NCBI RefSeq assembly: GCF_001429185.1
Contig: NZ_LMIW01000009.1
Coordinates: 1 to 64,000 of the forward strand
DNA from: Terrabacter sp. Root85
GTDB taxonomy: Bacteria > Actinomycetota > Actinomycetes > Actinomycetales > Dermatophilaceae
DNA length: 64,000 bases
Direction: 5' to 3'
Shown here: one piece after another, positions 47,665 to 52,581 of the stretch
How positions within the stretch are numbered: position 1 is the stretch's first letter
Layout of the letters: each line of letters opens with the position of its first letter
Notes under the pieces: generated by a model
What the model saw: the letters and a program-made list of their open reading frames with translations, nothing else
Database searches by the model: none
Told to the model about the DNA's origin: nothing
Made by a program: the position numbers and the translations under genes

Positions 47665-48534
47665 ATGAAGAAGACGATCGCGCCGGCCGCCGTCGCGGCC
47701 GCGCTCGCCGGGGCCGTTGTGGCTTCGGCACCCGCCGCGCAGGCCGCCACGGCGCGCAACGGCGTCTGCGAGACGGGCGAGTTCTGCCTCTACTACAACT
47801 CCGGCAACGGCGGGTCGCTCGTCGACCTCGCGAACAGCCAGTCCGACTACGGCACCGGGTCCGGGTGCGTCACCTTCGTCTCGGCGGGCAACGGCCAGGG
47901 GCAGTGCGTCAAGAACAACGCCGCGTCGGTCTGGAACCGGGAGGCCGCCGTGGCGACGGTCTTCTACCGGAGCGGCTACTCCGGGGCCATCGACTCGGTC
48001 GACCCGGGCGTCATGGCAGACCTGCGTCCGGAGCTGAAGAACGAGAATGCCGGCCACATCGTCGGCGTCGCCACCAACGACGCCTTCGAGTACGGCGTCT
48101 ACCACTCGGCGGGTGCTCGCGTGACGGCGTGGTTCGACGGCTACCTCAACACCCCGGGGCGACACGAGGGCATCGACGTCGCCTACCAGTCCGGCGCCGA
48201 CGTCTTCGCCGTCCTCGGCGGCACCGTGACCCGGGTGACCGAGGGCAGCGACGCGACGGATGCGCTGTCCACGCTCGCGGTCTACAACGCCACCTACGAC
48301 AAGACCGTCGTCTACCTCCACCTCAACCCGTTGGGCTTCGCGGTGGGACAGTCGATCTCGAAGGGCCAGAAGATCGGCGACGAGGCGGCTCGCGGCGCCC
48401 CTGCCACGCACACCCACGTCGAGATGCGCCCCGGGCGCCAGACCGCGGCGACCTTCAGCAGCGACACGACGCTCGTGAATCCGGTGCCCACCCAGTTCTG
48501 GATGGACCGCCGCTACAACGCCTGCTGCCAGTGA
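47665..48534 (+). CDS. secreted I36 inhibitor-like / M23 peptidase fusion
   Basis: The 289-residue precursor has a signal peptide (MKKTIAPAAVAAALAGAVVASAPAAQA). Residues 30-105 follow the peptidase inhibitor I36 / crystallin-like pattern (NGVCETGEFCLYYNSGNGGSLVDL ... CVKNNAASVWNREAAVATVFY) with paired Cys. Residues 130-270 are an M23 peptidase with metal ligands H167 and D171 in RHEGIDVA and the HTHVEM pair (about 250). M23 enzymes cut peptidoglycan crossbridges. The joined domains are unusual. The upstream 156 bases hold a GC-rich leader with small hairpins and no firm promoter. Confidence 0.87.
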   Translation: MKKTIAPAAVAAALAGAVVASAPAAQAATARNGVCETGEFCLYYNSGNGGSLVDLANSQSDYGTGSGCVTFVSAGNGQGQCVKNNAASVWNREAAVATVFYRSGYSGAIDSVDPGVMADLRPELKNENAGHIVGVATNDAFEYGVYHSAGARVTAWFDGYLNTPGRHEGIDVAYQSGADVFAVLGGTVTRVTEGSDATDALSTLAVYNATYDKTVVYLHLNPLGFAVGQSISKGQKIGDEAARGAPATHTHVEMRPGRQTAATFSSDTTLVNPVPTQFWMDRRYNACCQ

Positions 48535-49332: not shown

Positions 49333-49456
49333 CGCGGGTCACCGATCGCACGACGGCAGACTCTAGCCAGCCGGCGCGGTGACGCCGACACCGGGGGCCA
49401 GCCGTCTCGGCGAGCCGTATGCCTCCCAATTCCATTGTGTGGCAGGGTTGCCGATC

Positions 49457-50236
49457 GTGCCTGCTCGCTCCTTGCCCCCGCTCCTGGCTGTTCTCGTCGC
49501 GGCGGGCGTGGCGCTGGCCGGCTGCGGCCTGCCGCTGTCGTCGCCCGGCGCCGGCCTTCCGCACGCCCCGACCCGCGTCGTGCCCGGCAGTGCGGCAGGC
49601 GGAGCCACCGCGAGCTCCGGGCCGTCCCCCGTCCCGCCCCTGACACCCGCGCTAGCGCGCGCGGCGCTCACGACGCTCGACGGCCTCCCGGTCAAGGGCC
49701 GGGCCCCCAAGACCGGCTACGACCGGGACGCGTTCGGCCCCGCCTGGAGCGACGACGTCGACGTGAGCCTCGGACACAACGGCTGCGACACCCGCAACGA
49801 CGTGCTGCGCCGCGACCTCGTCGCCGAACGGTTGAAGCCCGGCACACACGGATGTGTCGTCGTCTCAGGCACGCTCGCGGATCCCTACACCGGGCGCAGC
49901 ATCACCTTCGTCCGGGGACGCGCCACGTCGGCGAAGGTGCAGATCGACCACGTCGTTGCCCTCGGCGATGCCTGGGTCACGGGTGCGCAGCAGCTGACGG
50001 CGACCGAGCGCAGGACGCTCGCAAACGACCCGCTCAACCTGCTCGCCGTCGACGGCCCGACGAACAGCGCCAAGCGTGACGCGGACGCCGCGTCGTGGCT
50101 GCCTCCGAACAAGGCCTACCGCTGCACCTACGTCGCGCGTCAGGTCGCCGTGAAGTCGCGCTACCGCCTCTGGGTCACCGCGGCGGAGAAGGCGCAGATC
50201 GCTCGGGTCCTCACCGGGTGCTCGCGAGCACGCTGA
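49457..50236 (+). CDS. lipoprotein with DUF1524-type HNH nuclease domain
   Basis: GTG 49457 gives a 259-residue precursor with lipobox LAGC (LLAVLVAAGVALAGCGLPL). The C-terminal 150 residues match secreted DUF1524/HNH proteins of actinobacteria: YDRDAFGPAWSDD, NGCDTRNDVLRRDL, then QIDHVVALGDAWVTGAQQ, NDPLNLLAVDGPTNSAKRD and ASWLPPNKAYRC. The DH and N...K residues fit a beta-beta-alpha-metal nuclease. It should act on extracellular DNA. AGGG lies ten bases before the start; other starts upstream exist but add no signal. Confidence 0.85.
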   Translation: MPARSLPPLLAVLVAAGVALAGCGLPLSSPGAGLPHAPTRVVPGSAAGGATASSGPSPVPPLTPALARAALTTLDGLPVKGRAPKTGYDRDAFGPAWSDDVDVSLGHNGCDTRNDVLRRDLVAERLKPGTHGCVVVSGTLADPYTGRSITFVRGRATSAKVQIDHVVALGDAWVTGAQQLTATERRTLANDPLNLLAVDGPTNSAKRDADAASWLPPNKAYRCTYVARQVAVKSRYRLWVTAAEKAQIARVLTGCSRAR

Positions 50237-50258
50237 CTCCGGCTGACGCCTGGGAGGT

Positions 50259-50330
50259 GGAAGGGCCGGACCCCACCTGACTGCCAAGCCGTGAGGGAGG
50301 GGTGGAGTGGCAGTCAATCCCGGCCCTTCC
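50259..50330 (+). other. nested inverted repeats with pseudoknot potential
   Basis: GGAAGGGCCGG (50259-50269) pairs with 50320-50330, and TGACTGCCA (50278-50286) with TGGCAGTCA (50308-50316). CCCCACC (50271-50277) can pair with GGGGTGG (50299-50305), which crosses the second stem. It may be the terminator of the HNH gene or a structured leader of the acyltransferase gene. Confidence 0.6.
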
Positions 50331-50568
50331 AGTAGGACACGCTACGGGACGCGGGGTGCCCTGTGGGGGCGAAGATCCCCGTGAATCCTGTCGATTCGAC
50401 GGGAAATGCGCCTTTCGTCGGGCTCGTGGGCGTCACATCCTCGGTGCACCGTTCTCCCGGAATCGCCCGAACCGCGTTCGCCGCGCACGTCGACCACCCG
50501 CGAGGCGGTGCGACCTAGCCTGCTGGCATCCGGGGTCCTCGGCATCCCGGCGACCTCTGGCGGACCCG
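50331..50568 (+). promoter_or_regulatory. leader/promoter region of the acyltransferase gene
   Basis: Nothing protein-coding is convincing here: the long in-frame extension upstream of the acyltransferase start is Arg/Pro-rich and lacks conserved features. TAGCCT near 50516 is a candidate -10 box, which would give a leader of about 45 bases. GTCGATTCGAC near 50389 is a short palindrome. Confidence 0.4.
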
Positions 50569-52581
50569 ATGCCCAGACCGACAGAACGCCCGACCGCCTA
50601 CGTGCCGGGGCTCGACGGAGTGCGTGCCCTCGCGGTGGCGGCTGTCGTCGGCTACCACCTCGGTGTGCCGGCCCTTGGCGGAGGGCTGCTCGGGGTCGGG
50701 GTCTTCTTCACGCTCAGCGGCTTCCTCATCACGGGCGTCCTCGTCGCCGGGTGGGAACGTACGCGGACCGTCGGACTCAGCCGCTTCTACGTGCACCGGG
50801 CCCGTCGGCTGCTTCCGGCCGTCGTCGTGCTGCTCGTCGTCGTGTCGTTCGTGTCCGTCGTCACCCACCCCGACGCCGCGGGTGAGCGCCTGGCCGAGTC
50901 CGTGGCCGCCCTGCTCTACGTGAGCAACTGGAAGACGATCTCGGACGGCGAGTCCTACTTCCAGCGGTTCAGCGGGCCGGGACCCTTCGACCACCTCTGG
51001 TCCCTCGCCGTCGAGGAGCAGTTCTACGTCGTCTGGCCCGTGCTCATGCTCGGACTCCTCGTCGTCGTGCGGGGTCGGCTGCGTGGCGTGGCGACGCTGA
51101 CGACCGTGCTCGCCCTCGCGTCGTTCGTGCTCCTCTGGCTCCTCGCCGTGCCGGGCTTCGACAACACGCGGGCCTACGAGGGCACCGACGCGCGGGCCGG
51201 AGGACTCCTCGTCGGCGCTGCCGTGGCCCTCGTCTGGCGCCGCGGCTCACTGCCACCACTGTCCGACCGAAAGGACCGTCGGGCTCTCGACGGCGTCGGC
51301 GTCGGCTGTCTCGTCGTCGTCCTCGCCCTCATGACGCTCACGGACGAGTACTCGCTGTCGCTCTACCGCGGCGGACTGCTGCTGCTGTCCCTCGCCACGG
51401 CCGGCCTCGTCGCGGTCGTGTCGCACCCGCGGTCACGACTCGGCCGCCTGCTCGGGGTCCGGCCCCTGCGCTGGGTCGGCGAGCGGTCGTACGGGATCTA
51501 CCTCTGGCACCTGCCCGTCGTCGCCCTGACCGGCCCGGACGTGCTGCGCGGGCATCACGGGCTCAGGGGCGCGCTCCAGCTCGGGCTGACGCTGCTGCTC
51601 GCGACGCTGTCGTGGAACCTCGTCGAGGACCCGATCCGACGGCGCGGCTTCCGGCGCGCCCTCCGCCCGCGACGGCCGCGACCCGGCGACCTGCCGCGCG
51701 CCGTGCCGTCGATGCCGGCCGTCGCCGCCGGCACGATCGCCCTGGCCCTCGTCTCCGTCACCTCGCTCAGCGCCGCCGCGCTCGTCGGCGGGGGACGGGC
51801 GGACGACCGGGCGCTCGACCCGGGCGACCCGCCCGCGCCGCCGACGACCGCCGCGACCTCGACGTCCCCACCCGCGTCACCGCCGTCCCCGACCTCAACG
51901 CCGTCCCCGACGTCACCGACGTCACCGACCGCGCCGCCCTCGCACCCTCCGGCGCGGACGTCGTGCACGTCCCTCGTCCACATCGGGGACTCGACGTCCG
52001 TCGGTCTCGTCGACCCGGCATACCAACCCCGTGCGTCGACGCGGCTGCCCGCCCAGTACGCCCGCGTCGGGGTCACGAGCTTCGTGCCGGACATCCTCGG
52101 CGCGCGCTCGATCGTCGAGACGTTCCGGGGGCAGCCGAACGCCGAGAGCGCCGTGACGTCACGGACCACGCAGGGGTACGCCGGGTGCTGGGTCCTCGCG
52201 ATGGGCACCAACGAGGTCGCGAACCAGTACGTCGGGGGTGTCGTGCCGCTCGCCCACCGGATCGACCTGCTGATGCGGCCGATCGGCAACCACCCGGTGC
52301 TGTGGCTGACGGTGCGCACCACCGACACCTCGGGGCCCTACGCCGACCGTGAGATGGAGAAGTGGAACGCGGCCCTGCTCGACGCGTGCAGCCGCTACCC
52401 GACCATGCGCGTCTACGACTGGCGCACCGAGGTGCACCGGTCGTGGTTCGTCGACGACGGGATCCACTTCACGACGCGGGGCTACACCGAGCGCGGCAAG
52501 CGCATCGCCGACGCGCTGGCCCGGGCCTTCCCGGCCGCAGGGGCGCCGGCCCCCGGCTGTCTCGTGCAGTCGGGAGACTGA
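50569..52581 (+). CDS. acyltransferase-3 membrane protein with C-terminal SGNH domain (OafA-type)
   Basis: The 670-residue protein starts YVPGLDGVRALAVAAVVGYHLG, the family start with the catalytic-type His, and has about ten helices including FFTLSGFLITGVL and DHLWSLAVEEQFYVVWPV. After a basic stretch, one more helix and a Pro/Ser/Thr spacer comes an extracytoplasmic SGNH domain: HIGDSTSVGL (about 471), GTNE (about 545) and DGIHFTTRGY (about 630). Such proteins O-acetylate cell-wall or surface glycans. The spacer repeats TSPTSP-like units. Confidence 0.9.
   Translation: MPRPTERPTAYVPGLDGVRALAVAAVVGYHLGVPALGGGLLGVGVFFTLSGFLITGVLVAGWERTRTVGLSRFYVHRARRLLPAVVVLLVVVSFVSVVTHPDAAGERLAESVAALLYVSNWKTISDGESYFQRFSGPGPFDHLWSLAVEEQFYVVWPVLMLGLLVVVRGRLRGVATLTTVLALASFVLLWLLAVPGFDNTRAYEGTDARAGGLLVGAAVALVWRRGSLPPLSDRKDRRALDGVGVGCLVVVLALMTLTDEYSLSLYRGGLLLLSLATAGLVAVVSHPRSRLGRLLGVRPLRWVGERSYGIYLWHLPVVALTGPDVLRGHHGLRGALQLGLTLLLATLSWNLVEDPIRRRGFRRALRPRRPRPGDLPRAVPSMPAVAAGTIALALVSVTSLSAAALVGGGRADDRALDPGDPPAPPTTAATSTSPPASPPSPTSTPSPTSPTSPTAPPSHPPARTSCTSLVHIGDSTSVGLVDPAYQPRASTRLPAQYARVGVTSFVPDILGARSIVETFRGQPNAESAVTSRTTQGYAGCWVLAMGTNEVANQYVGGVVPLAHRIDLLMRPIGNHPVLWLTVRTTDTSGPYADREMEKWNAALLDACSRYPTMRVYDWRTEVHRSWFVDDGIHFTTRGYTERGKRIADALARAFPAAGAPAPGCLVQSGD

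Follow-up and report, generated by a model that had tools for sequence, protein, structure and literature searches.

A conserved two-stem element beside an HNH-nuclease gene in the Terrabacter group: a candidate minus-strand small RNA with a C-rich loop

The 6C RNA (RF01066) is built of two C-rich stem-loops, and actinobacteria also have GC-rich intrinsic terminators that lack a T-run. One report on 6C RNA in mycobacteria presents its C-rich loops as the parts that bind mRNA (PMC9569102), and another report describes cutoRNAs as overlapping 3' ends of convergent genes, in read-through mRNAs (PMC3765725). The element analysed here, found in the window (the whole stretch of 64,000 nucleotides that was analysed), shares features with each of these systems and differs from each. 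It is like 6C RNA in being short and intergenic, in its stable hairpin and C-rich loop and in strong sequence conservation in the same genomes, and possibly also in its working mode, a C-rich loop directed at G-rich mRNA. However, it has one hairpin with an internal loop and a single C-rich loop, it lies at another locus, and it is found in the window's genus only. The 6C family model gave no hit on the element at E up to 10. The 6C RNA itself is present in each of the nine genomes that represent the genus, where its best matches reach 32-42 bits and so fall short of the cut-off of 47; it lies on contig C10 of the window's genome, with the element on C9; in 14 control genomes a 6C match appears in Corynebacterium glutamicum only, also below the cut-off. 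The element is not 6C, and by analogy it may work like 6C. As a separate observation, the eight aligned 6C loci (L081-L088, around 1501-1576) have in common a core that is well kept and, upstream of it, a block that is also conserved.

The outer stem of the element is similar to terminators without a T-run (cf. the hairpins L126 and L127 below), but the element has in addition a large invariant loop and a conserved tail past the stem. With cutoRNAs it would share convergence, here of the proposed RNA with the HNH gene; it differs in the dedicated promoter that we propose for it, and in four of its six carrier genomes the gene that follows is not in convergent orientation. No Rfam family reaches its gathering cut-off anywhere in the window, and the four hits around the element are at chance level (E 1.3-9). 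A minus-strand hit over the element is to the Streptomyces small RNA Scr3202 (RF02833); its 14.1 bits (E 8.6), where the cut-off is 52, are again chance level. A known RNA family was rejected on these grounds, and no tRNA or tmRNA was found in the window.

The element is probably transcribed, and we put the chances slightly better than even that it is the gene of a non-coding small RNA about 72 nt long, read from the minus strand from a promoter of its own and folded into a two-part hairpin. Its parts are listed in Table 1. A preliminary description of this DNA had given an outer stem of 11 bp and an inner stem of 9 bp, and both are perfect, the outer one reaching 12 bp if T50258-A50331 is counted; the gap of 22 bases between the end of the HNH frame (50236) and the element is likewise as described. 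The distance of about 240 bases to the next gene depends on a start ATG assigned by eye only.

Table 1. Coordinates of the conserved unit, of the parts of the proposed RNA and of the neighbouring gene
Feature	Coordinates	Strand	Remarks
Whole conserved unit, 91 bp	50259..50349	-	85/91 columns invariant, six genomes; flanks less conserved
Proposed small-RNA gene	50330 down to about 50259	-	promoter-side tail 50331-50349
P1 5' arm, outer stem, GGAAGGGCCGG on minus strand	50320..50330	-	invariant 6/6
P1 3' arm, outer stem, CCGGCCCTTCC on minus strand	50259..50269	-	invariant 6/6
P2 5' arm, inner stem, TGACTGCCA on minus strand	50308..50316	-	single substitution, 50314, G007 only
P2 3' arm, inner stem, TGGCAGTCA on minus strand	50278..50286	-	invariant 6/6
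Apical loop, 21 nt, C-rich on minus strand, CTCCACCCCTCCCTCACGGCT	50287..50307	-	20/21 columns invariant; proposed target-binding part
Internal loop, 3' side, 8 nt, GGTGGGGT on minus strand	50270..50277	-	5-bp pairing with apical loop possible
Candidate -10 box TAGCGT (TAnnnT)	50339..50344	-	8 nt before first base of P1
GmrSD_C / HNH-type nuclease gene, neighbour	49379..50236	+	Pfam PF07510, 5e-22; constant in six carriers; convergent with proposed RNA

The same description had joined the two stems by a 7-bp pair that crosses the inner stem, CCCCACC (50271-50277) with GGGGTGG (50299-50305), and had proposed that the RNA could switch between nested and pseudoknotted forms. These segments are complementary only in parallel and not in antiparallel orientation; an antiparallel partner for CCCCACC would have to read GGTGGGG, and the element contains no such sequence. 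The switch was thus founded on a pairing error, and all that is left of it is an alternative pairing of 5 bp. The longest antiparallel crossing matches are two, mutually exclusive: ACCCC (50270-50274) with GGGGT (50299-50303), and CCACC (50273-50277) with GGTGG (50301-50305). A true pseudoknot or switch RNA with one of these as its crossing pair (ACCCC/GGGGU or CCACC/GGUGG) is in our view very unlikely. The matches do exist, in columns that are nearly all invariant, and on the plus strand the alternative pairing competes with the inner stem; however, matches of 4-5 bp arise easily from short C-runs and G-runs, there is no covariation, and connecting loops of 0-3 nt against a 9-bp stem would be expected to strain the geometry. 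No base pair is altered on both sides in the structure of either strand, a count of low power given that in each stem (12 outer and 9 inner pairs) all pairs but one are constant among five distinct sequences. What holds of the description is a real, structured element, on the strength of conservation and fold; the pseudoknot falls with the parallel pair, and the description probably also read the wrong strand. The lesson is that a structure-only reading of a single sequence can confuse parallel with antiparallel complementarity and choose the wrong strand.

When the window is shuffled 100 times with a first-order Markov model, a perfect 11-bp stem around a perfect 9-bp stem arises 0.01 times on average, and at most once. 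The window itself scores 2, in a count that uses 11-mer registers, so that one 12-bp stem may score twice, and that does not list the places behind the score. Apart from this, perfect 11-base inverted repeats with spacers of 3-62 are in excess throughout the window (1-64000), with 44 registers vs a mean of 8.2 in shuffles; this excess presumably represents hairpin terminators.

The element follows the HNH-nuclease gene in six of the nine genomes of the genus (the Terrabacter group), namely the window genome (G000), G003, G005, G006, G007 and G008, and G001, G004 and the 74%-complete G002 gave no strong match to it. In the alignment of 50259-50349 from the six carriers, 85 of the 91 columns are invariant (47 of 50 between the outer arms): G000, G003, G006 and G008 are identical across all 91 bases, 88 are shared by G007 and 87 by G005. 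At these loci the HNH and DUF218 proteins of the window genome show only 69-70% identity to those of G005 and G006, the carriers most distant from it, and the DNA of the HNH gene is 77-89% identical over the five relatives. Because near-invariant columns and a uniform minus-strand fold stand against such diverged neighbouring proteins, we take the element to be real and selected, and strong selection on it is strongly supported by these comparisons.

The limits of the conserved unit are asymmetric. Towards the HNH gene the outermost base of the stem is also the first conserved one, and at the opposite end another 19 bases beyond the stem, TAGCGT included, are conserved before identity drops; identity is 68-90% over the 50 bases to the left of the element and 0-84% over the 50 to the right (0 where BLAST gave no alignment). 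G003 and G008, the closest relatives, still have flanks that are 72-90% identical, while in distant carriers they are lower or unalignable; the conservation contrast is therefore small in G003 and G008, and on these alignments the case is carried by G005-G007. A conservation scan speaks against this reading: other stretches of 91 bases that match the score of the element (87-91 of 91) number 616 in G003, 204 in G008, 1,193 in G007, 0 in G006 and 755 in G005, out of 19,727 per relative in a 20-kb region with coding and non-coding DNA pooled and with BLAST pieces displaced by more than 5 kb dropped. In an unrooted tree of the HNH and DUF218 proteins, G004, which is without the element, is placed between carriers, and loss of the element in G004 would be the simplest reading. 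Since G001 and G004 give no strong match, the element would be dispensable there, a point against the small-RNA reading.

Within its own genome the element has one strong match, itself, and 12 short ones, none of them better than E 0.88. When 147 genomes were searched at the DNA level with an E limit of 0.01, eight gave a match, six of them in the genus (its own included) and two outside; the latter two (L014, L015) are weak and look like chance, L015 being the end of a coding gene by eye. In 396 genomes of the phylum, the same kind of search matched its own genome only, and an exact scan for a 20-base core returned five records, four from Terrabacter and one from Terracoccus; T. tumescens JCM 1365 is a strain with this core. 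This distribution bears on the possibility that the element is a DNA site, either a double palindrome for a protein dimer or a recombination or cruciform site, which we consider unlikely. The two inverted repeats would suit a site of this kind, and so would the varying gene content just downstream (an acyltransferase, an AlaRS-like gene or neither). But each of the six carrier genomes has a single strong match, phages and plasmids gave no match, the exact core is absent from viral contigs, and no integrase is found among the five neighbouring proteins searched. Moreover, the repeats are not concentric, and the invariance between the arms goes beyond what binding to the arms would need. A mobile or phage element was rejected on the first three of these points.

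Searches with the model R2, which used strict filters and few scored candidates per genome and may thus miss weak relatives, gave, with an E limit of 1, 17 matches outside the six carriers among 186 genomes of the family, all of at most 23.9 bits (G004 at 20.7 and G001 at 19.1 bits among them), and three matches of at most 26 bits in 396 order genomes (L126-L128). Two of the 17 family matches and all three order matches were inspected: L126 and L127 are short GC hairpins, and L128, L057 and L058 show no resemblance by eye. Neither L077 nor L078 resembles the element over the conserved block. In the genomes searched there is no convincing match outside the genus.

Which strand would be transcribed? 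Folded as minus-strand RNA, all six sequences form P1 and P2, with a mean inner-stem probability of 0.91-0.99 and a mean unpaired probability of 0.78-0.81 in the apical loop. Folded as plus-strand RNA, they give inner-stem probabilities of 0.00-0.61; in the window's own sequence the nested alternative ACCCC/GGGGU beats the inner stem on this strand, and no such competition exists on the minus strand. Conservation between protein genes and a stable fold are thus found together here, with a fold energy only about 2 sd better than that of shuffles on either strand (z -2.0, -2.1). The substitution at 50314 in G007 turns an A-U pair into G-U on the minus strand and makes an A-C mismatch on the plus strand; the plus-strand alternative fold also accommodates both G007 changes in its pairs, and as one event this is a weak argument for the strand.

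Transcribed from the plus strand, the element would belong to the 3' UTR of the HNH-nuclease mRNA and show a G-rich loop; it would be a terminator or a stabiliser, or an RNA derived from that 3' UTR. We hold this to be rather unlikely, even though it lies 22 nt past the HNH gene in the window, the same gene precedes it in all six carriers, and its outer stem is like short GC-rich hairpins elsewhere in the order (GAAGGGCCGG..CCGGCCCTTC in L126, similar in L127), which, in other families of the order, are possibly terminators without a T-run. Here the loop equals the stems in conservation, and a plain terminator has no need of that. Conservation also extends beyond the 3' end of the stem, where no T-run follows (a search of 50200-50620 for a stem followed by a T-run found none), and the plus-strand fold is not uniform. 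A small 3' hairpin, GTAG/CTAC, is predicted on both strands and has one pair broken in two of the six genomes. Finally, G004 keeps the HNH gene and the element is missing.

The conserved tail of 19 bases lies on one side only, as expected for a minus-strand promoter. For Streptomyces lividans, the -10 motif TAnnnT is reported upstream of 88.7% of the sequences examined, with a weakly conserved -35, in one published account (PMC8079986). Between 50151 and 50500 there is a single TAnnnT on either strand, the candidate box of Table 1. With 19 occurrences per strand in the window, or 0.0003 per base per strand, the chance of finding it at any of five offsets on one strand is about 0.0015. Three columns of the tail are variable, two of them at n positions of TAnnnT, and the box reads TACCGT and TAACCT in two relatives. 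A strict sigma-70 scan at the element recognised no promoter and no -35; the hexamers at 17-nt spacing are, by eye, CCCACA, CCCAAC, CCCACC and similar, none of them recognisable as a -35.

A minus-strand transcript could also be an mRNA, with a frame that starts at TTG (50317), 7 nt after GGAAGG, opens with a short conserved peptide (TATPPLPHGLAVRWGPAL, following the start codon) and extends into sequence antisense to the HNH gene. In all six genomes no stop interrupts this frame between the TTG and the end of the element, so the RNA need not be non-coding; the frame reaches 150 aa in the window and 327 aa in G005, and its three changes are two silent and one replacement (codons compared by eye). 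Nevertheless we judge this the least probable of the readings weighed here: the peptide diverges once the element ends, third positions appear almost as frozen as the others, unlike those of neighbouring genes, and DNA as GC-rich as this is expected to hold many long antisense frames. The remaining five reading frames across the block were rejected, having an in-frame stop in at least five of the six genomes or, for minus frame 1, a changing continuation with stops at different places.

How would a small RNA from this locus act? Transcription would start near G50330, directed by the -10 box at 50344-50339, and the RNA would fold into P1 (11-12 bp), an internal loop of 3 and 8 nt, P2 (9 bp) and an exposed C-rich loop of 21 nt. 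By analogy with 6C RNA, this loop would bind mRNAs at G-rich sites resembling Shine-Dalgarno sequences and reduce their translation. P1, like the terminator-looking hairpins of the GAAGGGCCGG type, may serve as a terminator both for this RNA and for the HNH gene that converges on it. Near-complements of the loop number 123 in the nine genomes vs 83 for a reversed-pattern control, six of the 123 being the element itself and five one tandem repeat in G006, and no ribosome-binding site is obvious in the 11 contexts inspected of 30 loci; the target search is uninformative and thus lends the target step no support. Two repeats were also noticed. At G006:C3:225312-225378 lies a 12-base tandem repeat whose unit contains GAGGGAGGGGTG and matches the loop of the element, and in G008 (L121) a repeat with the partly palindromic unit AAGTTTGGCCTCTCGAC / AACTTTGGCCTCTCGAC stands beside a loop-like match.

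More generally, we suggest tentatively, and with some doubt, that the element represents a new genus-restricted family of small RNAs with one C-rich loop, that is, a second, independent 6C-like anti-Shine-Dalgarno regulator beside the ancestral 6C, which would have been present early in the Terrabacter group, with at least one later loss. Should the minus-strand RNA exist, the genus would possess, in addition to the conserved 6C RNA, a lineage-specific small RNA whose loop is C-rich; this would mean that C-rich loops have been used in parallel for mRNA control in high-GC bacteria, and the locus would offer a test of the origin and loss of such RNAs. No title on small RNAs of Terrabacter is among the literature matches listed, in a coverage that leaves out most subscription journals.

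The HNH gene (Pfam GmrSD_C) stands next to the element in all six carriers, while the gene on the other side differs between genomes: an acyltransferase in G000 and G003, a 37-residue match to the end of the acyltransferase followed by DUF218 in G008, DUF218 directly in G005, and an AlaRS-like gene on the opposite strand in G006 and G007. Since the downstream gene varies while the element persists, the element is not the 5' leader of one downstream gene, and we count this independence in favour of the minus-strand small RNA. Several features of the surrounding genes may be recorded in their own right. The acyltransferase/GDSL-like gene occupies 50569-52581 of the window and occurs in G000 and G003, and the match to its last 37 residues in G008 is at L090:10175-10285. 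A gene of 513 codons that we take to be AlaRS-like (L092:10143-11684, minus strand; also in the L091 and L094 regions) seems to stop where a full-length AlaRS would continue; it lies between HNH and DUF218 in G004, G006 and G007 and is absent in the four other compared loci with both genes. Upstream, at 47665-48534 of the window, a protein combines a peptidase-inhibitor I36 domain with an M23 peptidase domain.
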